DNA of 64,000 nucleotides from Macrolepiota albuminosa (Eukaryota; Basidiomycota; Agaricomycetes; Agaricales; Agaricaceae), in NCBI GenBank assembly GCA_027475525.1, contig JAMWFC010000108.1, positions 125,811 through 189,810 of the forward strand, given 5' to 3'. The translations under genes and the position numbers were made by a program. Shown here piece by piece: positions 1,692-52,272 of the stretch (positions are counted from its first letter, which is position 1; every line of letters begins with the position of its first letter). Under the pieces are notes generated by a model. The model saw only the letters and a list, made by a program, of their open reading frames with translations, did no database searches and was not told the origin of the DNA.

Positions 1692-2485
1692 TGATAGCGC
1701 TGACAGCAGACAGAATGACAACTGACAGATGGCATCAGTCACTGACAACAGCATTTAGGGAAAAGCCTGATGATCTATCAAAAACTGACGGACAGCTTGG
1801 CGTTTGACCTTGGCGTCTGACACCGCTTAGCACCTTGATCTGGCACCTGACATCGCTTAGGTGTTCTGACAGACAGAAGGATGATGGATTGATGGTTTAG
1901 CTTCGCAATCTGCTGCCTGGGGCTGCTAAGGGTCTTGAACGGACGGTAGGGATCTGAAATCGTTGGAGCTACCCCTATAAAATTTTCTAGTTTACCGCAC
2001 TTTGGTGTCATTGGTCACTGGCGACGGTGAACTCATTGTAGTATAAAAGTACTTACTGACTTGTACATAGAGAATTGAATAATAGACAAGAGTTTCCTGC
2101 TCCCCTCACTTCAGTCTCCCTTACGCTCAAGATCTCATTTACGGTCGGCAACATCAAACTCATCGGCAGTTGCAGACTCTTGCTAACACTTGACACACTC
2201 GTGCCTTGCAACTACGGCAGGCATTATCGATGCTTAGACTTCGCTAAGCTTACCGTGCTCTTGCCGTTGACCTTGCCGTGTTCACTTACCGCTTCTTTCA
2301 TAGGTGCTTTACCTTAGCGCTTTACACTTGCCGACCCCCCTTACCGACTTTCCCTCATTTTCACAGGCGCGTTCTCTGGGATCTGCCCGGGACTCCCTAC
2401 ATCACTTTTAGCACGCCCAACGCAAGCTCTTGGCATGGTAACACTATAGTTACATTTGTTACTGACCAAACCTTGGGCGTCATCA
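1692..2485 (+). mobile_element. LTR-like block (family shared with 42251-42907)
   Basis: The block starts TGATAGCGCT and ends GGGCGTCATCA, giving TG...CA ends. It aligns in patches with 42251-42907: a GGCGACGG-GAACT stretch before a TATAAA box, a CTTGCAACTACGGCAGGCA-like stretch, and the shared end TTCTCTG-GA--TG-CC-GGACTCCCT followed by TTGGGCGTCATCA. The right edge coincides with the point where the neighbouring gag-like pseudogene is cut off compared with its copy at 49.1-50.8 kb, as an insertion would do. No matching target duplication was found, so the left end is approximate. Confidence 0.42.
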
Positions 2486-3111
2486 CCGGGCTCGACAGGA
2501 AACAGACACGGAATTATCCCTGCAAGATTTTGCCACTGGTGCCTCGAATTCACATGGTTCACCTCGACGTGAGCATAACGAGCACTGGTGATGGTTAGGA
2601 CGTGCAACGGGGCCAGGAGAACACTCACAGGACCCTTATTCTGACACCACTTGAGGGTGGGAGGGCCACGGTGCCGGTTTTGGGCTGCAGCAAATTGCTC
2701 CAGTGTCACATTGGCTTGAGGGATCCGCTTCGTTGCCGGGACTTGCCATACCTGACCGGGCCCAAGAACAGGCTGTTCAGTATGCGTTGACGAGCTCACA
2801 GCAGGTGCTGATTGGACTGAGCTGCTTGGACCGGCTGTCTGCGTGCTCCTCTCTGGTGCCAATGGGTCGGATGTCAGTGTCGAAGAACTTGCACCCATAT
2901 TTCAGGCTGCCATCTCTGGGTGGGCGTGCCGGGTAAGTATGCAGACATGCCGGGAAACTACTTATGCTGCTGGAAAAGGGCTGCTATTTGCTGCTCATCC
3001 CGATGGCGCTTGTATATTTCTCAGCGCTCCTCATAGCGTAGCCATGAAGCAGTAGAGTTATCACCAGGCTGGGGTGGCGTAGGCGAACGGTTAGGGGTAG
3101 AGTGGCACGAC
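2486..3111 (-). pseudogene. Zinc-knuckle gag-like pseudogene (copy 1)
   Basis: On the minus strand a frame begins with ATG near 3109-3111 (MSCHSTPNRSPTPPQPGD). It continues through stops into a cysteine motif, C-x2-C-x6-C-EFEAPVAKS (RPNHHQCSLCSRRGEPCEFE), near 2500-2600. The spacing resembles the cysteine clusters of gag-like proteins found beside basidiomycete retroelements. The same gene, longer and with a coiled-coil end, is at 49168-50760. Here a TGA at 3021-3023 (minus strand) faces CAA in the other copy, pointing to ancestral CGA. The coding end is truncated by the LTR-like block. Function is not established beyond nucleic-acid binding suggested by the cysteines. Confidence 0.5.
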
Positions 3112-3138
3112 ATAGTCAAAGAAGGATGGATGGTCAAA

Positions 3139-3292
3139 ATGTTTTTCTTATCTACCCTTTTGTTATGATGGCATCAAGCTTCTACTTCTATTACCGCTAT
3201 GAATACATAGCCACTATGTTTTTCTTATCTACCCTTTTGTTATGATGGCATCAAGCTTCTACTTCTATTACCGCTATGAATACATAGCCACC
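3139..3292 (+). repeat. 77-bp direct duplication
   Basis: The second copy begins at 3216. The inverted element copy near 49.1 kb has this segment once only. Confidence 0.85.
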
Positions 3293-3833
3293 ACCACATT
3301 GCTTAGATGAATAAATAAAAATAAACCCCGAGTTTGTACGTAAGTAACAATAAGAGTGTTGTGTCCATACAGATAGTTTTGAATCCTCTGCAAAGTTCAT
3401 GTATTTTTAACTAAACTTTTCAAGTGTGTTTTTGTCATTTATTGTTTCATGTGTTGTGAATGTCATATGCACTGCTTATACAAGATAAAGGTCATAAAAA
3501 ATGAACGTAAAGGATGGATGGGAATGTCATTACTCACTTAGACTCCTTGCAGGTTGTGTAAGACCTATGCAGTGTGTCATTCCAAAGCCTCAAATGGTAC
3601 AACAGATCACCGATCACATACAGAGTCGATCCTAAGATGCTCAGCATATTCCCATAGAATGTGATCGCCGAATAGACTGCTGATCATCGGATGATCAGCA
3701 TCAGTGGATCCACATGGAACGTGATCGCCAAATAGACTGCCGATTATTGGCAAGCGTGACTTTGGTTTCACTATCCTCAACGACAAGACATGGCCGCCTT
3801 GAACCATATTTTGGGTACAGGTGCCCTGGGGTC

Positions 3834-3987
3834 AACGCAGGTAATATATAATACATCCAATGCCAATTTTGATGCTGATTATGATTGGTTAGAGCATAAC
3901 TATATTTTGCAACGCAGGTAATATATAATACATCCAATGCCAATTTTGATGCTGATTATGATTGGTTAGAGCATAACTATATTTTGT
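3834..3987 (+). repeat. 77-bp direct duplication
   Basis: The second copy begins at 3911, and the copies read as identical. The related segments at 37.6 and 47.7 kb are single. Confidence 0.85.
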
Positions 3988-4303
3988 CTGAATGAGGGGG
4001 AGGGGATGGGGGGGGAGGAGAGAGAGAGAGAGATAGAGGGTTAATACAAATATCTGGTGAGTCATAATATTGTATTATAATACCATTGTTCATTTACCGA
4101 CGCATCTTAAGTCAGCGTTGTGGCTTGCCAGCTACATAAAATCGAAAGGGCATCTTAGGGTTTGTATGTATCATCACACCTGTGTGTGATGGCATTTCTT
4201 CGTGAGTATGTTATTGCTGTCTGAAACCAGTACATTGGATTTTGCTCGCAGTGGTGGCAAGCTTTCTTCACTGGATTTTTGATACTACCTCAATTGCACC
4301 CTT

Positions 4304-4457
4304 TTAGTTATGCCTATACTGTTCAGCTGTGGGTCTACCGAGGTGTTTCCTACCCGATATGTCCTTAGCTACCATGTAGTTTAGTTATGCCTATACTGTT
4401 CAGCTGTGGGTCTACCGAGGTGTTTCCTACCCGATATGTCCTTAGCTACCATGTAGC
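4304..4457 (+). repeat. 77-bp direct duplication
   Basis: The second copy begins at 4381, in noncoding leader. Confidence 0.85.
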
Positions 4458-5342
4458 GGAAGTAGATAGCATTGTAGACATACGGCTGTATTTAATTATT
4501 TATCCCAATCGTGGTATTGTGGCTGTGTATTGTTCGAGTATACTATTGCTGTACAGCCATGAGTTCCGTGATTGCTACATGTATTCCATATTATTACATT
4601 CTTTCAAGTGCGAAACAATCTAATTGAATCTAAAACGTATAATATTGCTTTTACCTTCACGTATTGTTTGAGGTGATATAACTATTTATCTGTCAATGTC
4701 ATATTTAATCTTTCTTGGTCTGCGGTTTATAAAGGTATCGTACTTAGATAATTCATCGATCAAGCATTAAGGGAGAAAAAATGATAATAATAATAATAAT
4801 AACAATAATAATATATACGTATAATTCCCTTTGATAGGTATTGCCAAACCGTTCGTCCATATGGTCAATTATATAATTGATGTATTATTTTGATGCAATG
4901 ACACTTATTACGACATGTTGTTTTGATGATGACACTTAGTTTTTACTGTATTAACTGGGAAAAAATACAAAAAAAAAACAAACAAACAAACGACACAATA
5001 TGATGTGGGCGGTAGTATATTGTATGTTAGCGCTATTGACGGTGGTATATGTGGTGCTTGGTATGTGGGTTAATATAGAAAGGCACTGAGGGAACGGCGA
5101 TGAGAGCTTGTGGAACAATTCAGCAGGGACGACTGATTGACCAGATGTGAGAAATAGGATAACTCGGTGAAAATATAACGGACTGCGTTGGGTAAAAATG
5201 TCTCAAGAGGTAGTATCAAAGACATCATAAGATATCAGTCGTCAATGTTCATGTAATTCAGCATTTGTTGCTCAAAATTGCTGGTACTGACCGCCTCGCC
5301 GTCCCTCTGTTGGAGTTCTCCGTTGTCTTCATATGTTCAGAG

Positions 5343-5496
5343 CTTCCTTTTCACCAGCTTGTAGTCTTTGCATTTGAGCGGTTGCCCCTTCCTCTTCTTG
5401 GTAATTGTCAGAGTGAGAACTTCCTTTTCACCAGCTTGTAGTCTTTGCATTTGAGCGGTTGCCCCTTCCTCTTCTTGGTAATTGTCAGAGTGAGAA
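5343..5496 (+). repeat. 77-bp direct duplication
   Basis: The second copy begins at 5420. It duplicates the Lys-rich C-terminal codons of the minus-strand gene; the equivalent at 46.1-46.2 kb is single. Confidence 0.87.
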
Positions 5497-5635
5497 GAAT
5501 ACATTTATTGTTTATATGGCCGCTCACTAGTGCAAATGTTTCGTCCAGCAGCGTTATCTTGTCAGAGTGAGAAGAATACATTTATTGTTTATATGGCCGC
5601 TCACTAGTGCAAATGTTTCGTCCAGCAGCGTTATT
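5482..5635 (+). repeat. 77-bp direct duplication
   Basis: The second copy begins at 5559, overlapping the tail of the previous duplication and breaking the same minus-strand gene. Confidence 0.87.
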
Positions 5636-5743
5636 GATCTCAAAACTGTTAACATCTTGTACTTCTCTCCCCTCAATGGAACGACTGCGAAGGATACCTG
5701 CGCCGCAACTATATCGCCGATTTGGAAGGTCTGCGGTTTGATC

Positions 5744-5900
5744 CTCTTGAACCTTTGATTTGTGTGAGCATCTATGTTTTATGGTCGTTGTCCGTATATT
5801 CTTACGTTTTATCTCCTTCCACTCTTGAACCTTTGATTTGTGTGAGCATCTATGTTTTATGGTCGTCCATATATTCTTATGTTTTATCTCCTTCCAGTGT
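5744..5900 (+). repeat. Diverged direct duplication (about 75-78 bp unit)
   Basis: The units start at 5744 and 5822. Unlike the exact 77-bp duplications, they differ by a 3-base indel and several C/T changes. It lies in an intron of the minus-strand gene. Confidence 0.7.
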
Positions 5901-6640
5901 TATCCTTGCTTGCACATACTCGACAACATTGTCTGATGTTCTCTTGAATCCCCCTCATGCAATTTTTTTGAGCAATCCGTTGGGGTCAGTATCCTTTTCA
6001 AACGGAATGTGAACTTCTTGTTTGTCTGAGTCCTTTGCGGGTGTAAACACCTTATTGTTTGCGTACAATATCTTGTTTCCTTTGTCTGACATTTTTTCCG
6101 ACCATTCTTCCAGTTTGCCCTCTTTGAACTCCTGGTCAAATGCTTTGTATACTGTTTTTGCCACAGCCATGGTGTCGTCAAACTGCTGCGTGCCAAGCCC
6201 GTCCAGTTTTATTGACTGTTTGAGGTATTTACACTTCCGATTGAATTCACTACATCCCTATCAGCCATCTTCAATATGTGTAGCATCATTGAACGCTCAC
6301 TTTATAGATCCTCCTATCTTAAACAGGAGCAGATCTATGTCTGCTATTGCACCGTACACCGTGTATATTGCTTCCTTGTTTGTCACCTTGCCGTCCTGGT
6401 CTGCTAGTAGGATTCTCCATATTTTTGGGCTTTCGTACTGCCGTACAACTACCGTACTTTTCCATTCTGGATTCTTCACAAGACATTAACTCTATGTGTG
6501 GACGCGATACATATATATTTTTATTTCACCTGAAGAATGTCATGGAGTCGTGCTTCCCCTCTATGCTCGTCATACTCGACATGTCATTCCAAGGTACTTC
6601 CTATGTTAATGTCCGTTTAAATATCTTTTTATAATTCTAA

Positions 6641-7887
6641 AAAGCTTCATTCAGTACACACTTGCATTGCTTTCGTTGTACTCGTTGTCCATTTTTTTAT
6701 ATGTGTATGTGATGATAAGATAGGCTACAGAATGTCTGGTGAGCTGATACTGTCTCGTGTCGCGTTGCAGCCATCTATTATAAGCAACTTTTCAGGGTCA
6801 ACTATCTGTATGGCTTCTTATTCTCATGTCGCGTTGCATTGGTCTGATCAGACAACATTTATGGGTCGACTGTCTGTCTGGCTTCTTAGCGATTTGGACA
6901 TATTTTATCTCTCTTATTCAACACGTTTGGAAACAATAAGATCTATCCAATTTATTGGATCTCCCTATATGCTAATCATCCAACCGTCTCACAGACAACT
7001 TCTTTCCCATATATTCTCCCGTCCCACAGGACTGTGTTCTTTTCCTTTTAGTTCGAAGCATGTACATTTCCGCATCAATATATTTATTCTGCTGTATCAT
7101 TTTATTTGATTTTGGCTTATAGGTTGTCTGTTCCCTGGATACTGAGTGGGTTACTTTGCTTCTAGCATCTTTTAGGATTGAAATAGGTTAATTCAAACTG
7201 ACTGATTGGCTTGCCTACATATTACCTACATATTACTCTGTTATTATTACGGGATTGAACAAGGCTAATTCAAATTGACAATTTGGCTTGCCTATTGGTA
7301 TCCCTTACTTCTTACACCGTTATGGCTAGGATTGAACAAGGCTAATTCAAATTGACAATTTGGCTTGCCTATTGGTATCCCTTACTTCTTACACCGTTAT
7401 GGCTACATTTCTTGTAGTATCTGAATGTTTCTGCCTTTTCGCCTTTCTATGTCCAGACTCGCCGGTCTGGCGCATGTAGAGCTTGTGTAAAGTGGCGGTT
7501 TCTTACGCAGGCGTTGTTATTCAATGTGTATTGATTTATTCGTCTAAGCGTGTATTAATGGTTCTTTATCTGTCTCCCAAATGGCTGGCTCAAAGCTTCT
7601 AACCCATCATTAACTCCGTGTTATTTTTCTTTTTATTTTTTATTTCTATTTGTTTTAAACGTTTTTTACCCTATATTTGGCTTGTATATTCAGTTTATTG
7701 GGCAACCATGGGTACTCGTGCTAATATATTTGGTTTATTTGACCCTCGTTGCTTTTGACGTTTACGTGTCCATTACTCTGCTGGGATACCATAAAACCTG
7801 CATGCTGCAGGCTTCCTTATCCTCAAATCTTTTGCTCTATCTATCTGTCCCTATTTTTGTTTATACATTGTTATACTTGGTACTACC
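6641..7887. promoter_or_regulatory. Shared divergent intergenic region, conserved in both element copies
   Basis: This separates the minus-strand gene from the plus-strand gene starting at 7888 and is retained, with many CpG-to-TpG changes, at about 43.95-45.1 kb. No specific promoter motif was identified. Divergent control is an inference from gene arrangement only. Confidence 0.35.
7253..7406 (+). repeat. 77-bp direct duplication
   Basis: The second copy begins at 7330, in the divergent intergenic region. Confidence 0.85.
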
Positions 7888-10800
7888 ATGCCTCCATGCA
7901 AAAAATCAAAGAAATCCACAGATAAACCAGAAGATATGATGCGTCCTTTGTACGAACAGCTGCAAGCTTTGTAAATTTATATCTACCTGCCTACGTCTCA
8001 TTATTATACTGATATATTTGACTAAGGAATGCAGACCAATTGGCTTTGTAAATTTATATCTACCTGCCTACGTCTCATTATTATACTGATATATTTGACT
8101 AAGGAATGCAGACCAATTGGACATGTGCGTTATGTAATCGTTCATATGTATGACCTTGACATGTGCTATCAGTATATTTGCAGCTGTGTTAGCCAGCAAC
8201 TCGCCTGTCGATGCCGATTCTGCATCTTCCTCTTCAGTCAAGTGCAAAATTGGTGTCGCCCGTGATGTGTACATCCTTGTATATCATGTTGATGTCAATG
8301 ATTGCTTATCATTTGTAGTGATAGTACACCCTGTACGCCTTCGCCAAAGAAGAAGAGGGCTGGTGGCCCTTCAAGCGTTGAGTCCCTGGTTATGTGCATA
8401 CTAATGTTATGTTATTGACCTTCGGTTGACTGCATACTGTTTATTTAGACGTGCCTTGGAGAAGCTTTTGGCCGGTACAGGTGATACACTGTCCACTCCA
8501 ACTGGGCAAACTATGTTAGTCAGATTACACTATTTGTAGTATGACTCACCTGAAAATGTTGTTTCTCGTATATCTTCAGGCGCAGTCGCACCCTTTCAGA
8601 TAAACCTCAGGTTGCAGGGGTCACAAAATCGACCACACGTATCCTTCCCAACATGAAGGCTGATTCAGACAATAACTCGGTGTCTGACAATTCCCCGGAT
8701 AACAGAAATAGCATCATATCTCTTGCAGAAAGCGACGGTTTGCTGGAAGTGTCAGTATTTTATTTTCAATTTTATTGTAAATACTGCTCATGTGTTGTGT
8801 CTTTTATTTTTATTCTTATTTGTGGTATCGGTACATCTTGCGTTCGTAAACTGCCTGCCCATTCATTGGACGACGAATTATACGCCACTAGTGAACCTAT
8901 TATTGATAAAGACGCATCTGACGACGGAGTTGACAGGAGTAGCTTTGAGTCATTGGAATTACCCGATGATGAAGCTGATATGGCAGACTTAGTTTTCTCA
9001 GACAGTGCGCCGATTGCATGTGTCAATTCTGATAACGAATCTTTGGTGTTTGCTGCCCCCGCCGATGAACAAGAGTGTGCTGATGATAACGAAGATTGTC
9101 GTGTTATGGAAGATGCCAGTACTTATGTACATGGCATCAATACTAAACACGATGATCCTGTCAATGTTGGTGAACACTATGATATCAAAGAGTAGCATCT
9201 TATTATTTGTTTGATTGATTTCTGTATTCTGATTTTTTTTTTTTTTGTTAGATTTGACGGTGCTACTGATCTGACTGTTATGGTTACTAATCCTCTGGTT
9301 ATGCAGCCGGACATACAGGATCCTATGTTCTCTTCTACATACAGTATGCTTCCTTATCTTCTGTATGTCTGTTTATAGTATCCGCATCGCAATATGTACC
9401 GGTCTGTTTCTATTTATTGACATATTTTTCACACAGCCACGTGTTCAATATCATACCGTATAGATATGATAAACAAATCAGTGATGGATCAGTGCAATTT
9501 GCACGTATATCAGCTGTGATATCGAAGATGACCGAAGAAAATGCAGAGTAAGTGCTTATGTTATCTTGTTCATGTGCATCGTCGTTACACACATGTATAG
9601 ATCTTTGATTCAAGGCCTATTGTGGGTTGAACATGGCTTATATGTGCATTCAGCTCGCATACATCCTGATAATCTTACTGCCAAATCTCGTCACCTTGCT
9701 TTAAACCATGGGGGTAATGCCTTTTGCATCGACGTCATGTTCGGTGTCATATCTGCTTCTCATCTCTTCGATTCCGGCGTAGAAGTCAGCAGTTTCTCAT
9801 TCCCTTATAAACAGAAACGTTTGATGATTGTGCCATTCCAGCAAGAATTCCTACGTTCTATGGCCAATGTTGGAAATGCGTTGGGTTTGCGTTCTGATCC
9901 CATGGGCTCTTATTCAAGCTATGGGATGGCCTTTGTAACCAGAGGCGAAGGGAAGAGTGTGTCCTTCAAAAACTGTAAATTTTCAACTTGCGTGTAGCAT
10001 ACCTTGCCTTTGTAACCAGAGGCGAAGGGAAGAGTGTGTCCTTCAAAAACTGTAAATTTTCAACTTGCGTGTAGCATACCTTCATGTTGACATCATTTTG
10101 TAGCGGGTAGCTACTCAGTGCCTGTCCTTTCGAAGCCTCCTGTACTTACAGACAATTCTATGTTTTCTGTAAAATCTGCTCCTATTGTACCGACTCCAAA
10201 ATTCAAGAATTCTATGGAAGCGGTAATAAATTATGAATCGACTGGTGTGTCTTCCGTGTCATTATTCAACTTCTCTATTTATTTATTTCCAGTGCCTGTA
10301 TACAACGGTTGTTCGGAAACTGGACCTGCCTTTCGATTTTTGGCTGCTGACTTCAATGCTATTGCTAGTTGGCGCTCATACAATGGTAACACGTCCAATG
10401 TTCCTGAGGGGTCTGTCATTGCCATGGGTTACACAGCTGGATGGTTTGAAGGTTCCTCTTCAGTGTACGTTCACTATTTGTTACGATATTCTTATTGGTT
10501 ATTTATTTACTTATTTTTAGGTTCCTTTCTACTAACATCAAGTTCGTCATGGTTCTTCACACCCCTGATCTTGTTGTGGTTGGTGGTGCAGGCACCAGGC
10601 GCATGGCATCCTTGATGAAACCCGGTGGTCTTGAAGGGCCTGCATCTGGTGCTCCGGGAGGGTTGCAGGCACCAGGCGCATGGCATCCTTGATAAAACCT
10701 GGTGGTCTTGAAGGGCCTGCATCTGGTGCTCCGGGAGGGTTGAAAGCTATTTCTTCTTCTGGTTCTGTGGGTGGTATACCCTCCAAACACTGTAGTGCCA

Positions 10801-13800
10801 GCGCCAAGACGTCTTGCGTCGCTGGATCGACTGCTTCTCCCTGATCTGGTGTTGGTATATCGGCATTGGCCACAACTCGTGGTGCTACCTCTAAGCCGAC
10901 TCGTTCTGCTGGGCTACCCAAGGGGAAAGGTAAAAATAAAGAAGTAATCTGATTGCTGTCGCATGGACCGCGTATAGTTCCTTTATTTTTCCGTGCCTAT
11001 CAGTACAAGCTTGATTTTGTTGTTTTCCGTGTTCTGATACCTTGATTTTTTTGCTTTGCTGGACTACGTCGTACTATTTCTGCATACATCACTGTGTTTG
11101 ACTACAAAATATGGTGTGATGTACCGAATTGATATTGTTTTCAATTTGCCGGCGGACTCATGTAAGAGTGTTATGGACATATAAAACTAAATTGGTATGA
11201 CCTTCATATTTGTTGATATTATAGCGCGTACTTACTGTTTGATGGTTTTACTTGCTAAAGGTTGTGTCTGGTTTGTATGACTAATCTTTGTTATTCAAAT
11301 TCGTACCTAGTTACTCCGATGTCAAACTAAATATGGGCCGCTATTACATATATATTTTTATTTACTGAAAATTATGATTTTTATTTTATACATATATATA
11401 TAGGTGGCGAGTTAACACCTCCAAACCTCCATCTTGTACTCCCTCCTGCCCTCTCCACACACACACGTACTTTCTGATATTTTCATTATATGTCTGTGAC
11501 TTTCCCTCATCTGTACTCCCTCCTGCCCTCTCCACACACACACGTACTTTCTGATATTTTCATTATATGTCTGTGACTTTCCCTCATCCTCACTTATCAA
11601 ACAAGGCTTTCGCATCCTGTTCCTGGTTCACTGATGCGCTGCTATCGGACAGAGATCTTGCTACCCGCTATGGACGAGACACGGCAATCCATGTGAGTGA
11701 ACGTTGTTGACTCGTTTATTGTTGATGATCCTATAATTACATGCTGATATCGTGTTTGTAGCAACTTGTTAGCTGTATAATTACAGAGGAAGCTACATTT
11801 TCTCCTGCCCTAATTACATGCTGATATCGTGTTTGTAGCAACTTGTTAGCTGTATAATTACAGAGGAAGCTACATTTTCTCCTGCCCGCAAGGATGATCA
11901 GTATTCTCTGTTTTGCGCTTTTATGGTGGGAGATGATGTGCCCACAAAAGAACCTGATGGATGCTTGATTTTGGATTCTCATGGCCTATCGTGTTGTGGA
12001 TGTATTTGAGATGATGAATGGGGGGGCTATTCAGAGACTCTCTTCATCTGGTCCCATAGTTGACAACTACAAAGCAGTACGTGTCATTGTTTCTATTGCC
12101 TTTTATCAATTGGTCAAGCACGATATTTTATATATTACCTAGCCTATGGGAAGCCTTAATAATATTCCTGCTCTACTGGAGAGATCCCAGAACACCCTAA
12201 ACTCTCATATACGTGCACTTCAATCCAAGGCTTGTAGAGATAAACAATTTGACTCTTCCGCATATTATTCGTCGGAAGGCAGACCCTTGATTCGTTTGTA
12301 CTCAAGTCTCGCTCAGCACATTGGCAAAGAAAATGTTGTCACTACACTCATCAACTTGACCTCTGCGGCCCTGCATTTGGGATGTCTTCTTAAGGTATGT
12401 TGATATTTATATTGTACGTGTATTGTTAATGCTGAAAATATCAGTGCTCGTATAAGGGAAATTTATTTCTGCCTACGGACATCGAGTCCATCGAGAGTAT
12501 GATAGTTTCCGGGTACGATACCATTCGGTTTAGTTGTTATTTACGTTTTAGAGTTTGATACAGTCCATCGAGAGTATGATAGTTTCCGGATACGATACCA
12601 TTCGGTTTAGTTGTTATTTACGTTTTAGAGTTTGATACTGCAGATCAGAGAATGACCAATCTGGGCTCACGCATATTCGCCAAGTTCACAGTTCAGCTCC
12701 TCAAGGTCGCACAACTGTTCTTCTTAATTCTTTGTATATCGCGTTGGCCATATCGCCTCTCATGTTACTCAATCCTCGTGAGTATAATGAAGTTGGCGCA
12801 AAGGATACAGTGTTTAAGGTGTGATTGTTCTTTCACACGCCATATTGATAGTTAAATGTATTGTTAATGTGTTAGCTATGGAATCACATAGGAGAGCTAG
12901 AACAACCTACTGCTGTAGTGGAAGCGGATCGGGCGTTGTGGAAGGTGTTGTTTTCTGCAGCTCTGGGGGGGAACCTCCTACAGGAACTCAGATCTGCATT
13001 TCAACATCTGGAGGGGGTTGTGAGGGATGCCGTGCAGCTCTGGGGGGGAACCTCCTACAGGAACTCAGATCTGCATTTCAACATCTGGAGGGGGTTGTGA
13101 GGGATGCCGCGCCTCATTGGCTGAACCTCGTGAACAGGTCTTCAAGCGTCCCTGCTATCCTATCTTCACAAACCGATGTAATTGATGCGCTCGATATGGT
13201 GGTATATTCCGATGTTTTGCCTTTTCCTGACAATTCTTTACCCCTGCCCTCACCATCTGGAAGCGCCTACGGTACCAACATCACTGTGCTCAACGATTCC
13301 CATTCATCTGGAATTACGAATGATAACGAGTTCGACAACGACGGGCTTCGTGATAAAAATGTGTATCCTTCTCAATCTGTTCATCTGGAATTACGAATGA
13401 TAACGAGTTCGACAACGACGGGCTTCGTGATAAAAATGTGTATCCTTCTCAATCTGCTGGTAGCAATCTGTATCATCAACCTATCGATGATGACAATTCT
13501 TGCAATACTCATAGAACACATATGTCACCTTTACGAGATACTACTGACAATCTGTTCAACGACGATGTCCATGCTGGCAGTAAAAATCTGAGCAAGTCGA
13601 CGAACAAAACTGGACAACCTGGTGGGCGTGATGCGGCAGACAGACGTCTATCTTTTGTGTCTCCTCCTCCGTATTCTTTAAACAATCAGGATGATTCTCC
13701 TTCTGATGGGCCCACCAATGTCTATATTGATAGAAGATATTCACTTGGTAGAGGTGACAATATCAATGATGAGCAAACCATACTCGATATCCCTGACATC

Positions 13801-14171: not shown

Positions 14172-16278
14172 GTGACTGGTGAACGTCCTGTTGAGTATGA
14201 AATTCATGGTACGAACTGCGCATATTGGTTTACTCCCAAGTTCCATGTAAGTACTATAATCTGTTTCCATAACTGCTGCTGGACACCCTACAGTTAAAAG
14301 AGGATTTACAATGGTTTTACTCACTTCACGACTTAGTCGTTAGGAGGTCGACTAGACCAATGTTTGTCAAGATGGCTTCTATGGATGAATTGACGGACCC
14401 ACTAATACCAGCATATCTAAATATCTGACCAACCATGCTGCCGTATTGATCAAAAGCATTGACCATGTAGACAACGGATTTACCGGTGCAACACTGGCAT
14501 CCGTCTGCAACATATACAGTGTTACCACTATTCATGATACGCCTGTTTATGTGTTCCTGCCTTTCATTACATATACTTACATATGATAGATTTCACATCG
14601 CTAGATACTCAACGTACGCGTAGAGGTTCCCTGATCAACGTGTTTGCTGCTGTTTTGTCTGCGGAACTGCGGGCTCTGAGCACTCTTGATATGCCTGCAG
14701 TACGAGATCCATTTCCTGTCTTGTCCATGTCAGGTGATTGGTTTGCATGGTCGCAAGTAAATGGGCAATACTTGTATTGCGACTCCTCTGACAATTATCC
14801 GATATCTGACATGCGGTGGGCAATAGCATCGACCGGATCTGCCCACCATTACTGGCACATTGGTTCTAACGGGTATGGTACTTTCTTACAGGTGGAAACG
14901 GGCTTCAAGTTACTGTATATTGCACGACCGAAGTCCAGGTCTTTCGAGGATTTCGCTACCGTCTCTATTTTTATGGAGAAATACGTAATGTATGAGGCGA
15001 ACGCTGACTTGTGGGATACCGAAGTGGTTGTATTGGAACCTGGTGATGTTTTGTGAGTGGTGCCCTTATGTTGCTGTATATAATATATGACTGATCCCAT
15101 AGTATCGTGCGCCCTAACGTGCCACTTTGTGTCGTGACACCGGTTCCTTCCATATGTATTGGAGGTCATTATTATCTTGCGACCACTCTCGCTGATTCCG
15201 TTATTGGGATATATCATCATTTTGTGGGTAGTCAAACCCTCGCAAATGCTGATCACAGAATGGCTTCTCATTCTATACTGGTCCGCATGCTCGTGCATTA
15301 CTACCGGTATACAAAGAAACTTTTTGAGGGCGACCTAGGTAAGCATCACAATGTTGCTTTCTAATTTTTAGTCAATTTAATTTAATTACTTATTTCTTAA
15401 AATATTTAATTTCTTGTAGACCGGGAGTATCAGCACGTGCCGGATTGGGATACCTGGGAAGGCGCACTGTCTATTTTCTTGATGTGCAATTATTTCGAAT
15501 TGCATAGTGCTCTTATAAATTGGAACTACCTGTTTAATACAGATGTTCACGCCTTTGAGTCGTCTATCAAAAACCGCTTGAGGGCCCGCAAAATCGTGTA
15601 CTGGTACTTCCTTTGTCATACCTTTTGCAGGCCTGGTGATTCTTCAAATGGTTACAACACGTTCCAGACCATTTACTCTGTGTTTTTGGCTCGTCATGCT
15701 CATATGCTTGTTCTACTTAAGAGAGCCGCTCGTGCGTCGGGAATACAAGGCGAGGTTGAAGGGCTGGGTACCTCTTTGGTTCGGACGGCAGTTTGCAAAT
15801 GTATACGCGGCGGGCCTGCATGGGATTATTTCAAAACCATGACAGCCAGTTCTTCTGACCGATCGTTTTATTGGAACGGCCCGTCATACACTATAGAGAA
15901 GTCTACTTGTGATGCATACGGTGCACTACAGGGTTGTCATTATTCTCTTATTACTGGTTTATTCAGTTATATATAATAGATTGTCCTTATCTCGACGGTT
16001 TGGTTTATGGTGATAAGGAAACGGCATCTGAACTCGGGTACTCTCTATCGCACATATCACCTCGCCTAGATCGGAACAATCCTAAGGACGATGACGTTTA
16101 CAAAACCCTTGTATACAGCGATGGAGACGATTTTGATGATGACTTCGAGCCTCTTAATGACACTGTAGATGAACCGTATTCGCATCAGCATTCGGGCCAC
16201 AAACCCTTGACAGAGGAAACTGTTTTGCCAGCTGATCGTTGTTCGACTACAGTATCTGATCAAAATATCCGCAAATGA
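14121..16278 (+). CDS. JmjC-domain protein (2-oxoglutarate/Fe(II) dioxygenase fold), probably metal-site defective
   Basis: Exons with good splice signals: one ending at 15052 (donor gtgagt), then 15103-15338, 15420-15932, and 15980-16278 with a TGA stop; phases agree at each join. The core reads DMRWAIASTGSAHHYWHIG, then GYGTFLQVETGFKLLYIARP, then LEPGDVFIVRPNVP and VVTPVPSICIGGHYY. This is the layout of a JmjC double-stranded beta helix: first His near 14850-14864, cosubstrate strand, and a final His in GGHYY. The position two after the first metal His is Gly (WHIG) where the family has Asp or Glu, so one iron ligand appears to be missing. After the domain comes DWDTWEGALSIFLMCNYFEL and an acidic tail. 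Upstream, 14.12-14.25 kb (DLEFDESDVNVSDDVVFV) and 14.29-14.58 kb (KYLTNHAAVLIKSIDHVDN) are also coding-like, but their frames are not cleanly joined. The substrate is unknown; histone or nucleic-acid demethylation is only what relatives do. Confidence 0.65.
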
Positions 16279-17469
16279 GGTTGTCCGTCTTCGACTGCTT
16301 CAGAACACACTCATTGCCAAGGTATGTATTTATTGTAGTAACACATCCGTATTATCATGTGCTTATTCATTTAACCATTGTAGTCCGTCCTAGAATTGCA
16401 TCTTCCGACCCCTGAAACCATAATATTCCTGATGTAGTAACTATTATAGCCCTATCATGTGTAAAATCTTGCTGTTCCTGAATTATGTGTTGTGATGTAT
16501 CCTGAACTCTGTATTGTGAGATATACGAGGTTCACCTGAAGAAAAATATGCATATGCAGAAAATATTGAGTCCCTTCTCAGCGACAATTTGAGGTTCGTC
16601 ACTCTTTTGTCACAGGATACTGAAACGGCAGGCCTCGGCTATCATAAAAGTAATGTGCCCCTTGTGACCTGTCGACTGTGCCGTAGGGCATAGTATATAA
16701 TATGTATGTGTGTATAACATATTAATATATAAGTATTTGTCTTGTCCGATATTACGTTGCTGTATTGCACCTACAAAGTAATATAATTGTCCCCTCAACC
16801 CTCGAATAGTGTAAACTGACATATGAGCTGTTGTAGCTTACCCGTTTAATGTCGCACTAATATATTTATTATTGTTATATGTATAGATAAGCATGTTCAC
16901 TACATAAGCCTGGTAGTTAAGTATACGGTAATTAGGTGGACGTATCCTAGCTTAAACACAACGTACATGTGCCTTTAAGTTTCCTGCTAACTTATCTCTC
17001 CTCGTTGCTATATTGTTGGCTCGGCATTGGTATTATGTATATTTGATATACTCAACCTTATCATTGTATTATATAGGTGTTAAATATATTGTTTCGCAGT
17101 GTACACTGGCGTATGTCTGTTGATATTTCCATAATCAGTCTTTTTGTGTAGGTATATAACACTATGTAACATCGTAAACCTTAAATACTGTGTGGGCTGA
17201 ATATTTACTGGTCGTCTATCCATATGCTTATGTAACCCTTAATAACGGGTCTTACCAAAGGGTCATCTATACTGACGCTTATGTAACAAATACTAACCTC
17301 CTATGCTTCAATGATTATTGGTATGCGCTTCACCACCTTTTTTGTCAAGCGATGGGCTAGAGTCTATCTGCTCATCGCATGCGGTTTATACGCCCTTGTT
17401 ATATATGCAAATGCATATAATATCAGGTCAGTTATACCCTGTACTTCGATGTTTCATATATACACTTAA
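16279..17469. other. AT-rich spacer between JmjC locus and Helitron transposase
   Basis: I see no gene. It has scattered TATGTAA and TATATA words and no conserved frame. It presumably holds the transposase promoter and 5' exons, if any. Confidence 0.4.
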
Positions 17470-19140
17470 CTGAATGCGATTAGACACTTTTTAACCAATG
17501 AAAAGACTGTTGAACCGCTCTACGTGGTACACAATATTTCAAACACAACTTGCATGCATTCGGAACGTGATGTATCATGCATGCGACTTGCTAATGGTGG
17601 CTCTGCACCTCTCAAAGGTTTACGCACCCACCATATCATCCGATGTGATTATGCTGCGGTAAACCAGCACCACTCTTACGATGCCCTGTTACGTTACATG
17701 CGTTCGTGGCTATACGTATTCAGACGCCTTTCACAGTGTTTGCGTATCGATCTATACATTGTGTCAATTAAACAACGGTTTATTTATCCGGATGAACGAG
17801 TGTACATTCAACGGTCTCCTCATAGTTACATCGACATATACAATTTGCTATACCCTTGGGTACATGTTTGCCGGTTTTGGACCGGTATGCACACTGCGAG
17901 AACGTGTCGTGCTTTACGAGTTCTGTCAACCAGAGGACATGTCTTACGGCACGATTTCGCTGTTTCTCTGAGGGACTGCATGTCCGGCACCGGTATATTT
18001 CAATTTGCTGTAAAATACGGCCCATGTAATGCTGCAGTAATAGTACATTTAATCGAAGAGGATGTTGACCTTCCTGACGGCTGGCCGTCCCTTGTTTATG
18101 TACTTGCGATCAAACACGTTATTCTTACTATGGAGCGTGTGCGTCATCTCTACGCGTATAATGTATTATGTCCATCGTTAGGCTTACAACCCCATGTTTG
18201 TACACTGCACTACTCGAAGAAAGACACCCCGCGTCGCGTTATTCACTTTGGTGGCGCCAAGTCTTATTCATTTCCTGTAGAGGCAGTTAGTCCGCATGTG
18301 TCTGCCGGTCATGAGCACGTCCTGGTAGGACGGGTGTTCAAATATGTTGATCATGTAGATGCCAGTGGTCTCGCGTCATATCCCGTGACAAAAGGCTTTG
18401 TGCACGTGCAAATACCTGTACGAGAGATAGTCGACCACTTGTCTATAAAAAATATCTGTCTGGTTGCCTGCATGCACGGCATCAGTATGAGTACTTCTAT
18501 AATGAAGGAAGAATTGTCTTCAAAGTTCGATGGTCACAGTTGCCTATTGTGTGTCATCAACACTACGGTATTATGGGCTGAACCAGATAAACGAACCAAA
18601 GATGCAGCAAGGCGGGCAATTGCCCGTCGCACACGTAAACAGAGCCAATCATATCCTTGTCATCACGGTACCCGTAGACATACCCGTAAATCAACGTGCA
18701 TTGAACAAGGCATCGCCATACCTCTTGAACAAGAATATCCAGATCCAGATGAAAGCGTGGTATTTCTGCCACATCCTCTTAGTAAAACGCGAACCATGGA
18801 GGTCATAGGAAATTTTTGTTCTGGTACAGGACATAGATACGTGGAGGAAGCAGGCTGTGCGGTATGTGGTCTCCTACATCCTGTAGCCAATATGAATACT
18901 CTCAAGAGTGTGAAAGGTTATCTAGACATACTCTGCGTTCCAGGATTCACCAGAATAGAACGATTGTCTGATACAGATTGTATCAGGGAGCTGAGAGGAC
19001 CAGTAATTGATCACTCATGTAAACACGTTTGTCAACCATGCAGACAGCAATTATTCAATGGGATGGTTCCAAAAAACGCGCTAGCCAATGGTTTTTGGAT
19101 TGGCCCTATACCTGACGTGTTAAAACGCCTTAATTGGATC

Positions 19141-19294
19141 GAACAGATATTAGTTGCTAGAGTGAGAAAGTCCTTGTGTTACGCTCATGTGTCAGCCTCC
19201 GGTCTGAGCAAGATGAAGAACAGATATTAGTTGCTAGAGTGAGAAAGTCCTTGTGTTACGCTCATGTGTCAGCCTCCGGTCTGAGCAAGATGAA
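19141..19294 (+). repeat. 77-bp direct duplication in transposase N-region
   Basis: The second copy begins at 19218. The frame reads EQILVARVRKSLCYAH on both sides, so removing one unit reconnects the protein. Confidence 0.9.
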
Positions 19295-20223
19295 GGCGCA
19301 TCTTATTTCTTTCAAATTGCCTATTCAGAAGGTATATCAAGTACTTCCACCTCCTGTAACTGACCATGATGATGTGATCGCTATTTTATTTTCTGGTCCT
19401 TGCAAGCCATCTGCTAAGGAGTTACAGAGGCTACCTCTGCTCGTGAGCAGAAGGAATGTTCAGCGTGCGTTAGAATGGCTTAAACTTAACCATTCTTCAT
19501 ATAGCAATCTGGAAATATTGTACAGCAATTTAGAGGGATATCCTGAAGATGTTCCTTCTGCATCTGTTGTTCATCGCCAAAGTACTGATGAGGCTGGTAC
19601 AATAGACCCGCCGGTACATGAAGATAATAAAGATTCTGGTGTCCACATGGGCGACTGCCCCTTTGTTATCCATGGCCTCACCGGGGATGCTTTATCAGCC
19701 AAGACTACGGACGAACTTAAAGGACTTGCAATGCAGCATTGGATGTCTAACGGAAAAGCTCTGTGTATTGGTCATTCTACGTACCCCAAGAATACATTCA
19801 GCGACCCGGATTTGTATCCGCAAATGTTTCCTTGGCTGTTCTCCTATGGTCTAGGTGGCATAGGCGGTAACAAGTGCAGCATATCAGTGCGTGCACATAA
19901 AGCCAATTTGCTTATGTATCATGATAAACGCTTTTAAACAGATACTGGATTCCCATTCGCTGCCTTCAGCCATGAACAGGTAAAGGCTGCTACTAGTGGA
20001 GGCTATCTAGCAACAGAACGTGCAAACTTTAATGACATTTCTGACCATCTTACAACTGTCAATCCAAATGTTTTATGACCTTTCACAAAGAATGGCAGCT
20101 GGAGATATAGTTAAGCCGGTTACCGAGGATGAAAAAAGTTGTTTCCGTGTAATAGATGACTTGGATGTGATTTCTGATGGTGTCGAAGGGTCTGCTGTTT
20201 CCAAAAAACACATGCGGAATGAG

Positions 20224-20377
20224 ATATGGTCCCTGGTCATAAGCAAAGGTGCTCCTTCTTGGTATATCACCTTATTGCCTGCCGATGTAAAACATCCTAT
20301 ATATGGTCCCTGGTCATAAGCAAAGGTGCTCCTTCTTGGTATATCACCTTATTGCCTGCCGATGTAAAACATCCTAT
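20224..20377 (+). repeat. 77-bp direct duplication in Rep region
   Basis: The second copy begins at 20301. IWSLVISKGAPSWYITLLP is encoded twice in different frames. Confidence 0.9.
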
Positions 20378-21556
20378 ATGTCTTTATTACGCAGATAGCA
20401 AGACGTCCTTCACACTGTCTGTCCCCTATACTTCAGACAATGCTTACCGACTTATATCCAATAATCCTGTTGCCGGCGCACGTTTCTTTCATTTTATGAT
20501 AAACAGGTTCATAATATACATGTTAGGAGCCAACTCAGATACCCCAGGATTGTATGGTCATACTTCGGCATACTACGGTACCGTGGAACAACAAGGTAGG
20601 CTTACCCTACATTTACACATGCTTCTGTGGATTCGAGGAGGGTTCACTCCGGATGAAGTAAGAGAAAAAATCATGGACCCGTCATCGGGGTTTCAAAAGG
20701 CTATCGTGGAATATCTAGAATCAGTACATTGAGGCGATTTCTTGACTGGAACACTGGAAGACGTCAAAAAGCAGATATCGTTAAATAAAGCTACCTCAGG
20801 ATATACGGATCCTACTAGGTCGCTTCTGGAACAGCCGTCCCTTCCTTGCAAAGAAAAATGCTTTTGTGCGCAGCGTGTGATAATGCAGCAGGATGGTGGG
20901 ATTGCTTTTGTCATACGGTGGACAATCTGCTGTACCGATCAAACATACATACATGTACTTCCACTAAGGACAAAAATAGCATACAGAAAAAAAACAAGGA
21001 ACACAAAGGATGTCTTGATAACCTGTGAAGTAAATGTAGAGCAAGATTCCCTTGTCCTTTGTACGCTCACACAGAAGTTGATCCGACAACTGGTGCTTTG
21101 AACATGTGGAAGACGGAACTGTGACTCAATACATTTACAAGTCCTCTCACTTACCTGTTTTGATGCAATACCGACATAACAAGCTTCCGCTCTGAGACGG
21201 CCATCAAGACTGTGTTGTTGTACGTCACTAAATATGTGACGAAGCCTACCCTCAAAACATGTACTGCGTTTGAGGCAGTTGCATTGATATTCACTAAACA
21301 TGCAGATATACTAAACGGTCCACTTAATCATCAAGAGAAAGCCCGCACACTAATGACCAAGATAGCCAATGTTCTTAGCGCTAAAGCGGAAATGGGATCG
21401 CCAATGATTTGCATGTATCTATTAGGCAATCCTGATTATTATACTGACCATAATTTCTTGAATTTGTATTGGCCTGCTTTCGTTCAAGAGGCCAGACGTC
21501 CTTGGGCAGACTATGCTGCTGACCAGTTATGTGACAAGTTTCCCGATAGGTTTGCA

Positions 21557-22014
21557 GGACGAGTGATAGGGCTATCACCTGTATTTGATTATATTTTCAG
21601 AGGGCCAGAGTTGGACCGAATGACTTTGTATGAGTCGTCAAGATGTAAGAGAGTCAAATTGACCAACAGAACACGTAATATATTGGTCGATGATGACGAT
21701 ATATCCATTGGTGGAACGAAAAATATGCAGGGGTCTTGACCAACAGAACACGTAATATATTGGTCGATGATGACGATATATCCATTGGTGGAACGAAAAA
21801 TATGCAGGGGTCAGTGATAATTAAGAAACGAGGACGAGTGATAGGGCTATCACCCGTATTTGATTATATTTTCAGAGGGCTGGAGTTGGACCAAATGACT
21901 TTGTACGAGTGGTCGTCAAGATGTAAGAGAGTCAAATTGACCAACAGAACACGTAATATATTGGTCGATGATGACGATATATCCATTGGTGGAACAAAAA
22001 ATATGCAGGGGTCG
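21557..22014 (+). repeat. Diverged about 276-bp duplication of a transposase segment
   Basis: The segment starting GACGAGTGATAGGGCTATCACC at about 21557 recurs from about 21833, with C/T and other substitutions (GGCCAGAG/GGCTGGAG, GACCG/GACCA) and an extra codon. Because the copies have diverged, this is not a simple k-mer overlap. It may be two Helitron copies collapsed into one contig path. Confidence 0.7.
21659..21812 (+). repeat. 77-bp direct duplication
   Basis: The second copy begins at 21736, within a larger diverged duplication of the same region. Confidence 0.88.
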
Positions 22015-22263
22015 GTGGTTGTTAAATTCTCAACTCGTCATCCGCTTTCCGATACTCATGGTACTTATGTGTATCCTCCCTTATGTAGGTGTGTCCCTAA
22101 TTTAGTAGGCGGAAATTTACCTAGGAAGGATCAAGGGGATAGAGAGTACTATTGTGCGACCATGTTAACGCTTTTCAAACCTTGGCGTACAGGACACGAC
22201 CTTAAAAATACTGGAGAAACGTGGGATTCAGCTTTTGAATCTACATCCTTCAATAAGCGTCAA

Positions 22264-22417
22264 CTCACATTGCTCAAGAACATGAACATACGATATGAGT
22301 GCTTGGATGCGGCCGACAACTTTTATGCTCAGCTGAAGAGCTCACATTGCTCAAGAACATGAACATACGATATGAGTGCTTGGATGCGGCCGACAACTTT
22401 TATGCTCAGCTGAAGAG
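22264..22417 (+). repeat. 77-bp direct duplication
   Basis: The second copy begins at 22341. LLKNMNIRYECLDAADNFY is encoded twice with a frame shift between. Confidence 0.9.
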
Positions 22418-23021
22418 TGGAGGTGTATGTCTTACTAATTCAACGCTGACCAGAGACGAACTATCTGACATGATGCAGCGGGACAAAACTGAAAACTTCG
22501 AGGATATGGACGATGTAATTGCAGGTGTTGATGAAGAAACATCCGCTGTATTTGGCAAGAAAGAATTAAAACATAGATCTGATATGCTGCAAATATCAGC
22601 AACTATGGCAGATCTTGGGTGGAGAGATTTTATAGTGGACCAGGTGTTTCCTCAAATTGACGCCGTTGAACCTATGAATTCGACTTACTGGAAAGCTGTT
22701 GTTACAGCGAAGCGGGATGAGGTGCTGAAGAGCCGACATTCCAGCATATCTGTGTGCAGTGGTAAGTTGCCAGGCAGTGTACCAGAACTACCAGGACATG
22801 TCGACGTAGTAGATCAGAAGTATTTTCAGAAAATATATGTGAATGATAAATAGGAACCTACTATTGCTATTATATCCTCAGACTATGGGCTGAATGAAGA
22901 ACAGCTAAGAGTGTTCCGCATTGTGGCTAATCACGCAACGTCGTATATGCCTGAGCAACTTAAATTGTATATGGGAGGAATGGGGGGCACCGGAAAAACC
23001 CAGGTGCTCTGAGCCCTCATT

Positions 23022-23175
23022 AAGTATTTTGAAGCTAGAGGAGAGGCATATTGTCTGGCTGTGGTTGCACCTACGGGCACTGCTGCATTGCTTATAGGAA
23101 GTATTTTGAAGCTAGAGGAGAGGCATATTGTCTGGCTGTGGTTGCACCTACGGGCACTGCTGCATTGCTTATAGG
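23022..23175 (+). repeat. 77-bp direct duplication just after Walker A
   Basis: The second copy begins at 23099. VVAPTGTAALLIG is encoded twice. Confidence 0.9.
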
Positions 23176-23920
23176 TGGTTCAACATATCATTCGATGTTC
23201 AGCATTAACGACATGGTTGGTGTGTCAAAGAAACAACTCCCTCAAATTAAAACTCATCTACTAGGTGTCGATTACATGTTTTTCGATGAAGTATCTATGT
23301 TATTGTGTCGAGACTTGTATAAGATATCCGCAAGACTGGCTCAGCTGTCCGGTAGACTAGATATCCCTTTCGGTGGTATGAACATGGTATTTGCAGGTGA
23401 TTTCGCTCAGTTGCCCCCTGTCGCTGGGCACGAAGGATCGGCATTATATAGTAGAACTGTAGGTTTAAATACCAAAACATTGAAGGATCAGGAGTCTGCC
23501 ATAGGCAAGGCTGTATGGCATCAGGTAACGACCATTGTCATATTGCGTAAAAACATGAGGCAGAAAACTTGGTCTGCGGAGGACGCGGCTTTGCGCACCG
23601 CACTCGAAAACATGAGGTATAGAGCATGCACCAAGGAAGACATTAAATTTCTTAGGAGCAGGTCATTGGCCATCTCTAATAGTTGCCCGTCTATATCCGA
23701 CAAACAGTTTAGAAACATTTCTATAATCACTGCACAAAACGTGGACAAAGATGCTATTAACATTATAGGAAGTACTCAATTCGCAATCGAGACCCGTCAG
23801 GAACTAGTGCATTTCTACAGCGAAGATAGTCCGTCTTCCAGAGATGGCAATGAAACAAAAACCCATTCATCCAGTTACACGCGCTCTAAAGAAACCGCGA
23901 GATTTCCTCCAACTATACAG

Positions 23921-24076
23921 CGTGCGTTGTGGGACCAACCACCGTCATCTTGCAGTGTTCAAGTCACGGGAAAGCTGTCGTTGTGTGTAGGCTTGCCTGC
24001 GTGCGTTGTGGGACCAACCACCGTCATCTTGCAGTGTTCAAGTCACAGGAAAGCTGTTGTGTGTAGGCTTGCCTGT
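23921..24076 (+). repeat. Diverged 79-base duplication in helicase
   Basis: The units start at 23921 and 24000. The first carries GTCGTTGTG where the second has GTTGTG, plus a G/A difference. It breaks the frame before PVIIKNNVATELCITNGQE. Confidence 0.75.
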
Positions 24077-24529
24077 TATAATCAAGAATAATGTGGCTAC
24101 AGAATTATGCATCACCAACGGACAGGAAGGTTTCGTGTATGGTTGGAAAAGTTGCATTGGATCGGCCAGACAGATTATGCTGGATACGTTATTTGTACTA
24201 CTCAACAATCCTCCGCAAAGAGTAAAAATCGATGGACTTCCCGTTAATGTAGTTCCAATTGTATGTACAAGCATGCATTTAAAATGTAGACTCCCTAGCG
24301 ACGACAGTGTGTCTTTATCTCAATCACAGGTAGAGGTATTGGTAAACTACGCAATGATGAATTATGCGAGTCAAGGAAAAACTAGACCTTACAATCTAGT
24401 AGACTTAACCAAGTGTCAATCGCACCAAGCCTACTACACTGCACTATCCCACAGCGCTACGGTTGCAGGAACGCTCATTATCCGAGGGTTTTGATGCTAA
24501 CAAAATACAAGGCAAAGCGAGTGGCACAT

Positions 24530-25829
24530 TGCACAGGGAATTTCGCGACTTGGAACTGCTTGATGAAATAACCAAACTCAGATATATGAACCAGCTCCCT
24601 AAAGGTTTTGTCAATTCACCTAGATGATCCGATCTAATTTATTCATTTAGACAGTGCAAACGAAAAGGTTACATGCCCTCTAACCTTCATATGGCCTTAC
24701 ATTGGAGTGACAAGGACCCTTACAATGATGCATCATTCCCTGATATCAAATGGCAGGTTGCTATCAAAGATAGACCTATTAAGCTACCGCAGTCTCCTAA
24801 AAGCAGATTTATTCCAGCTAAGGGCACTCAGCCCATAGTACATCCTCATCTGATACCCAGCAAAATAACCCGAAACCACAACAATGATTCACGCAACTTG
24901 AAAATTTCGAAAAATATTATAAGCGGCAAACGGAAATTAAATATGGACATATGTGGAGGACTGATTGGAACTGAGTGGAATTCCAACAGTTGCACATATG
25001 ATGCGGTGATAACTATATTGTACAATATATGGCAAGATGACATGTCACTATGGTCAAGGAATTTCCGATCGTTTGGGACGTCAATTATGCGAAGCATGAA
25101 AAGCAACTTCTTATCAACACACGAAAATAAAATCACGCTAGACAACACAAGAGAGGTTTTGAGAAATCATATGAATAATTGCAATCCGATAAACTTTTTG
25201 TATGGTGAACTAACGAGTGTTCATGCTGTGATCAAAGAGTTGCTTATATGAATAATTGCAATCCGATAAACTTTTTGTATGGTGAACTAACGAGTGTTCA
25301 TGCTGTGATCAAAGAGTTGCTTATATGCAAGCGAAATGTATACACGTCATACATGCACTGTCTACGTGGTTATGCAGTTAACAGAAGAGCTGTTACATCA
25401 AATTCATGTCAGATTGCCATACTAGATAATTCACAACCATCAATACAACATTTTCTAAGAAACATGGAATTTCTTACCAAATCTCAGTGCAGAACATGCG
25501 CGTCTGAATTAGTTAGAATAATGAGAACAGTATACACAGCACCAATAATGTCTTTTGATGTGGTGTCGATCGACATCACAATTAATAGATACATTGATGT
25601 GCCAGTTTATGGGTCGGGAGACAGACGATATATCATAAAAGGTATCATATATTTCACAAACAGTCATTTTACTTGTTGATACGTGGATTCGTCCTTGAGG
25701 GTGTGGTTCCATGACGGTTTAATTACTGGTAGAAGGTTGATTGTCGAAGAAGGCAGTCTGGATATGTTGGATGTACAAGTCTGTAGAGGTAGTAAAGCAA
25801 CGATAGCGTTATACATTAGAGTGGCGTGA
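24530..25829 (+). other. C-terminal ubiquitin-hydrolase-like (USP-type) cysteine peptidase domain of the Helitron protein
   Basis: Downstream of the helicase the frame continues (GTLHREFRDLELLDEITKLRY) into DICGGLIGTEWNSNSCTYDAV at about 24940-25005, and later GIIYFTNSHFTC and SSLRVWFHDG at about 25640-25720. The pattern of a Cys box (NSC-YDAV), then about 220 residues later a HFT-x2 box and a W-x2-DG end, matches the general layout of C19-type ubiquitin hydrolases. Peptidases fused to Helitron transposases are known in several lineages. Activity is not shown. A TGA at 25677-25679 after HFTC likely replaces CGA. Confidence 0.5.
25169..25322 (+). repeat. 77-bp direct duplication in peptidase-like domain
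   Basis: The second copy begins at 25246. MNNCNPINFLYGELTSVHA is encoded twice. Confidence 0.9.
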
Positions 25830-27396: not shown

Positions 27397-27439
27397 ATGT
27401 ACACTGTTGATGTGTATATATTCATATACGTTTACACTT

Positions 27440-28193: not shown

Positions 28194-28261
28194 GTATTCG
28201 TCTATCTACGTACATGTATATATATCATATTTAAACTTAGGAATATGTAACATAACAATAA

Positions 28262-52267: not shown

Positions 52268-52272
52268 CTCAA

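Follow-up and report, generated by a model that had tools for sequence, protein, structure and literature searches.

A total of 64,000 nucleotides from the basidiomycete Macrolepiota albuminosa (the window; contig C54, positions 125811-189810) were analysed for a mobile element, a Helitron, in which a JmjC-like gene lies beside the transposase gene. The genome was searched for further copies (100,137,612 bases, 129 contigs). The JmjC-like gene is referred to as J, two conserved genes without known function as U and V, and the Rep/helicase gene as Rep. Subfamily 1 is the Helitron subfamily of the window, and the sister subfamily is a young one with its reference copy in contig C78. Features of the window are as follows (ATIR, asymmetric terminal inverted repeat).

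1684..30824, + strand: Helitron copy of subfamily 1, delimited by colinearity with a copy in contig C107 and by the common 3' edge; other repeats lie to the left
5901..6257, - strand: gene V, divergent from U and present in the sister subfamily too (tblastx colinearity)
8554..10471, + strand: gene U, several exons, with homologues in Termitomyces
12284..16077, + strand: gene J, JmjC-like protein, several exons (tblastx to sister J)
14538..15053, + strand: JmjC core exon of J, with HxG replacing HxD
15095..15361, + strand: following J exon frame, distal histidine replaced (PLCVV for PHxV)
17470..25832, + strand: Rep/helicase transposase gene, its frame broken by 77-nucleotide duplications and other changes
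19060..19535, + strand: DUF6570 (Pfam)
20295..20627, + strand: Helitron_like_N (Rep) domain (Pfam), HUH motif at 20601
21221..21244, + strand: Y2 motif YVTKYVTK
23114..23581, + strand: PIF1 helicase domain (Pfam), with Walker A upstream at 22977 and DEVSM at 23285
28647..30575, + strand: 3' stretch also conserved in the sister subfamily, without a named gene (tblastx)
30739..30824, + strand: 3' terminus, with two ATIR-like copies (30739, 30780) and a hairpin (30795-30811)
41854..54592, - strand: inverted, internally deleted copy with helicase pieces, then the leader with V; no J; repeat of ~500 bp inserted at 52270-52766

The original prediction, made from the window alone, had placed a Helitron Rep/Pif1 transposase, a JmjC locus and a conserved gene in one block at 2486-25829. 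All three components were confirmed, the Pfam domains of the transposase lying at about 19.1-23.6 kb together with its motifs. The block itself is longer. The copy in C107 is colinear with window positions 1684-27744, where the compared C107 DNA stops, and the 3' terminus lies at 30824/5, where 38 of 44 matching rows stop; four stop elsewhere, and the two that run on are the window itself and C107.

The sister element, its ends and its type

Analysis of the sister subfamily revealed a whole element in C78 (C78:1269356-1291282; 21,927 bp), whose ends enclose J, U, V and Rep/helicase. Its Rep/helicase is a frame of 2568 codons without a stop, with DUF6570, Helitron_like_N and PIF1 domains (Pfam). 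The ends were mapped with 61 matches (best 40 of 295 candidates scored), and the 16 best loci were cut out. The U-side edge was found at the same position in all 16, among 14 distinct flanks. On the J side, 32 of the 40 scored matches began at one common base (query 16-17), and outside this end the flanks differed in each of the six loci inspected.

The sister 5' end, TCCGAGGTCTAC..., bears a hairpin. An 11-bp ATIR occurs as CCGAGGTCTAC at the 5' end and inverted as GTAGACCTCGG close to the 3' end, with another hairpin after it; at the window 3' end two copies of this ATIR, each with one change, and a hairpin are also present. Thymine precedes the sister 5' end in 16/16 loci (TCCGAG; TCTGAG in two) and follows the 3' end in 6/6. 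Insertion into TT is named for Helentrons in the part of the source available (PMC5148889). No Helentron endonuclease domain was found among the ten Pfam rows covering 2315 of the 2568 residues of the sister Rep/helicase. The CTRR 3' end canonical for Helitron1 is absent: the sister ends in CTTTGA and the window copy in CAAGCAAG, each followed by T. The TC/CTRR termini expected by the original prediction therefore give way to ends of Helitron2 type, with ATIRs and terminal hairpins (both ends in the sister, the 3' end in the window), and HUH/Y2 Rep and a PIF1-type helicase are joined in one protein. The element is a large, multi-copy rolling-circle transposon of Helitron2 type.

Association of the genes and state of the copies across the genome

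The genome was searched with one open frame per gene, giving 151 matches for J (best 150 of 186 candidates scored), 132 for U (141/141), 152 for Rep (best 150 of 222) and 150 for V (best 150 of 161). A first count of co-occurrence compared 105 of the 150 listed J rows with 105 of the 132 U rows and 133 Rep rows; most of the U and Rep rows left out were second fragments of places already represented. J loci were classed by identity to the window J as subfamily 1 (at least 70%; n = 40), third class (60-69%; n = 13), mid class (45-54%; n = 13) and sister (36-44%; n = 39).

Among the subfamily 1 J loci, Rep was found on the same strand downstream of J within 20 kb in 29/40 and U on the same strand upstream within 25 kb in 33/40, both together in 27/40, and no other orientation occurred for either gene. 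A random point is expected to lie near Rep in about 5% of cases and near U in about 5%, so the association of the genes goes beyond chance. The mapped 3' end of subfamily 1 (best 40 of 156 end candidates scored) lies downstream of J on the same strand in 19/40 loci, with no other arrangement within 31 kb, and this includes six of the 11 J loci that have no Rep match. Sister J loci have Rep in 35/39, U in 36/39 and both in 35/39, and J always faces the other two. In 6/13 third-class loci a Rep with 29-30% identity lies 7.5-8.3 kb from J. Mid-class J has no Rep in 12/13, and the remaining locus (C78:571328) resembles a sister-type element. The other 45 listed J rows, many of them short pieces and some full-length, have Rep near 23, only in the two typical orientations. 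Overall, Rep lies downstream of J in all 71 + 23 J loci with a Rep match, in two orientations that match the class.

These results bear out the proposal that J, U and the transposase belong to one mobile unit: sharp ends on both sides enclose all four genes in the sister subfamily, and in subfamily 1 J is followed by Rep and by the 3' end at the frequencies given above. A Helitron that ends between 16.3 and 17.5 kb while J lies elsewhere was not seen in this genome; other genomes were covered by protein matches only. If J and U instead belonged to another mobile element, beside or into which Helitrons had inserted, a Helitron_like_N match between U and J, as found in C52 and C106, would be in keeping with it, the one in C52 being part of a nested insert of about 7.2 kb. 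Such an origin is contradicted by the single pair of ends enclosing J, U and Rep in the sister, for which it was rejected, and by the constant position of Rep downstream of J in two class-linked orientations. We consider it extremely improbable. The insert in C52 (286640-293832; loci L037, L038) probably represents a second, compact Helitron family.

The inverted copy in the window had been described as keeping the leader, the unknown gene, the start of the J locus and the helicase. Leader, V and helicase pieces are indeed kept. The copy jumps from the equivalent of position 8324 to 23257 and therefore lacks J, including its start, together with the greater part of U and Rep. A repeat of about 500 nucleotides is dispersed in three copies over the window (35013-35537, 41079-41606 and 52270-52772), the last inserted inside the inverted Helitron copy, and a high-copy repeat at 54612-55360 adjoins that copy. 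Two edges considered as the 5' terminus of subfamily 1 were rejected, 52269/52270 being the edge of the inserted repeat and ~54612 that of another repeat. At the left edge of the window (3-581), bordering the Helitron copy, a retroelement-like gag frame was recognised by eye, with no Pfam match. Inside the Rep/helicase gene (21556-22013) a stretch of ~180 nucleotides recurs 275-278 nucleotides further on and gives repeat matches to C107.

Exact tandem duplications of 77 nucleotides occur 23 times in the window (3139-33170 and 50843) and also at many of the loci L002-L057, and several frame breaks in the block coincide with them. Among 76 full-length exact duplications (period 30-199, 360 kb; overlapping loci counted twice), 64 have this length. 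Their fixed length suggests unmerged k-mer overlaps of the assembler. The duplications are probably an assembly artefact, one that shifts frames and imitates gene decay.

The JmjC-like protein: iron ligands, decay and constraint

The spliced core of the C78 J matched KDM7, KDM2A and PHF8 chains in the PDB (E = 1.4e-6, for KDM7, to 4.3e-4), 14 of the 15 rows being demethylases of KDM2/KDM7 type. A profile of seven J homologues gave KDM7 as the top row (E = 1.8e-8). By sequence comparison, the core of J is JmjC-like, of the KDM2/KDM7 type. Were J a TET/JBP-like DNA oxidase, the element would be another of the TET-bearing transposons, one of which is a Helitron2 in Agaricus bisporus; some fungal TET/JBP proteins are barely detectable by sequence search, according to the part of the source available (PMC12730594), and both families are iron/2-oxoglutarate oxygenases. 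The absence of TET from the 15 single-sequence rows and the 17 profile rows, together with the KDM7 and KDM2 matches, makes this very unlikely. J could also act on proteins other than histones; it might, for instance, hydroxylate Rep or one of the host's repair factors. JmjC proteins include protein hydroxylases, and Pfam found no chromatin-reader domain. The nearest solved relatives of J are histone demethylases, and we hold a non-histone target to be rather improbable.

Analysis of the iron ligands revealed a difference between the classes. HxD is present in 7/7 J homologues from other fungi (gene models P0003 and P0008 skip the exon of the distal histidine), and HxD and the distal histidine are both present in one sister, one third-class and two mid-class copies; in a second third-class stretch (L068) only HxD was seen. 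Among the 40 subfamily 1 loci, the 20 with the best match, one of them the window's, were read. The motif is HxG in 19/20 and HxS in one, so that the iron-binding aspartic acid is gone in 20/20, and the distal histidine is gone in all 16 loci in which the next exon was found (PLCVV). A working oxygenase is unlikely in subfamily 1 because both residues are gone in the loci read, and a catalytic role for J of the window's subfamily is accordingly improbable on the predicted protein. The putative chromatin-modifying oxygenase of the original prediction may hold for the classes that keep the ligands and is doubtful for the copy in which it was proposed.

The J exon was compared among 16 subfamily 1 copies, four of 20 loci having been dropped (length, shifts or Ns). 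Among 488 differences from the majority, 297 are C>T or G>A. Summed over the 16 copies, C>T-type changes affect 121/592 CpG cytosines vs 33/1248 other cytosines, and CpG ratios of 0.84, 0.22 and 1.01 were obtained for the window copy, the inverted copy and the sister, respectively. From this decay of CpG sites the host seems to methylate repeats. The plain ratio of replacement to silent substitution rates (dN/dS) of the subfamily 1 J exon is 0.29, which a context-matched control weakens to 0.57: replacement changes relative to silent ones stand at 0.57 of a null that keeps type and CpG context, and none of 2000 draws was as low. Some constraint may thus remain on subfamily 1 J despite the lost ligands, the value being only indicative as the copies are related.

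Conflicting histories, proposed role and known systems

Translated comparison of the two subfamilies showed V, U, Rep/helicase and the 3' region to be colinear. In subfamily 1, J precedes Rep and shares its strand; in the sister, J lies past Rep and on the other strand. J of subfamily 1 has 70% identity to third-class J and 41% to sister J; Rep of subfamily 1 has 70% identity to sister Rep and 30% to third-class Rep, the latter being a Helitron protein by Pfam. A tree of 14 J proteins joined subfamily 1 with the third class (support 99/100) and the sister with a Termitomyces protein (support 100/98). The histories of J, from the tree, and of Rep, from identities alone, seem to conflict. Because J has been relocated and inverted between the subfamilies and its history seems to conflict with that of Rep, it appears to have been kept or re-acquired and not merely dragged along.

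Homologues of the carried genes were found in Termitomyces, Tephrocybe and Arthromyces (two for U and seven for J). A protein search with the unspliced J frame found no homologue; the spliced models did. In Termitomyces sp. T32_za158 the homologues of U and J are the consecutive loci C0992_002355 and C0992_002356 (longest contig listed, 39,750 bases). A PDB search with the spliced U protein gave no match, and one with the U alignment gave only three rows, all with E >2. From the position of U we would guess that it helps Rep, for example by binding single-stranded DNA.

Overall, we think it fairly probable that this is a Helitron2-type element carrying J, U and V as standing parts, and that an intact J would lift a silencing mark. 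An anti-silencing role for J is what we infer from its relatives and its retention. Methylation of repeats is a plausible threat to the element, since C>T changes concentrate on CpG. A catalytically intact J of KDM2/KDM7 type would erase repressive lysine methylation from the element or from its target, and the element could then be transcribed or mobilised although the host methylates and CpG sites decay. In subfamily 1, J might act without catalysis, as a chromatin binder or competitor, or be on its way out. A wider version, put forward tentatively, is that J is a mobile anti-silencing module exchanged among Helitron lineages of this fungal group, and that in one lineage it has become a conserved non-catalytic competitor for, or reader of, a chromatin mark.

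Should J and U be neutral passengers, host genes captured once by a Helitron and copied along without use to it, the loss of the iron ligands in subfamily 1 would fit. Gene capture by Helitrons is known, and Pleurotus Helitrons with carried genes of unknown origin are described in the part of the source available (PMC4289320). Passengers of this kind are hard to reconcile with a J that is still found although it was moved and inverted, is associated with two or more distant Rep lineages and, among the copies read, retains HxD in all classes except one. The J exon also has fewer replacement changes than the context-matched null, which among related copies is indicative only. We therefore regard neutral carriage as unlikely.

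Several results weigh against a standing, chromatin-directed J in a complete Helitron. The 5' end of subfamily 1 was looked for and not found. For 27 of the 105 J loci no Rep or U turned up nearby (best 150 of 222 Rep candidates scored), namely 12/13 mid-class, 7/13 third-class, 5/40 subfamily 1 and 3/39 sister loci, and likewise for 17 of the 45 further J rows. A stretch of 4.5 kb beside one mid-class J had no match to the element, and J may therefore occur outside Helitrons too. Pfam gave no match for the spliced J core and no JmjC match for the J homologues, only a weak low-complexity match in P0005. Below KDM7, the profile search listed sigma factors and a transporter, matched over a low-complexity stretch; the other demethylases scored no better than E 0.4-0.8. 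The AlphaFold models (mean predicted confidence, pLDDT, of 42 for J and 27 for U) were unusable, the alignments being shallow (seven and two sequences, respectively).

If an anti-silencing role holds, this is a histone-methylation eraser on a rolling-circle transposon, and the arms race waged over DNA methylation would also be fought on histones. The system offers many near-identical young copies, intact and ligand-less J side by side, and visible CpG decay, for testing anti-silencing directly.

No JmjC-bearing Helitron was found in the literature searched, which comprised titles and the beginnings of abstracts, with subscription journals and Repbase outside its scope. VANDAL elements with VANC, as far as that literature describes them, likewise represent a transposon that carries its own anti-silencing factor. 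VANDAL is a Mutator-type plant element, and VANC is not known to be a JmjC protein. The HELPO1 Helitrons of Pleurotus ostreatus resemble the present element in their Agaricomycete host and in carrying genes of unknown origin beside Rep-Hel; unlike it, they measure 6.6-7.2 kb in the table rows available, and the words 'demethylase' and 'cupin' do not occur in the text (PMC4289320).

Helitron2 of Fusarium oxysporum, in the parts of its description available, shares ATIRs, terminal hairpins, a repeat located tens of bases before the 3' end and a Rep-Hel protein with the element reported here, and also has an extra open reading frame without known domain and an altered gene orientation between subgroups (PMC5148889). 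The present element differs in its length of about 22 kb, its JmjC gene with two more genes, and its end sequences.

The closest parallel is found in the fungal transposons that bear genes removing DNA methylation. TET/JBP genes have been described on DNA transposons including Helitron1 and Helitron2 (Kojima 2025, PMC12730594). In the portion of that work available, these too are fungal elements, Helitron2 among them, with an iron/2-oxoglutarate oxygenase thought to lift epigenetic silencing, and the oxygenase gene passes between transposon lineages, to which the apparent conflict between J and Rep is comparable. The terms JmjC and Jumonji do not occur in its main text. Unlike the TET/JBP elements, the Helitron reported here carries a JmjC-like oxygenase of the KDM2/KDM7 type, in company with U and V, and in one of its subfamilies the iron ligands have been lost.

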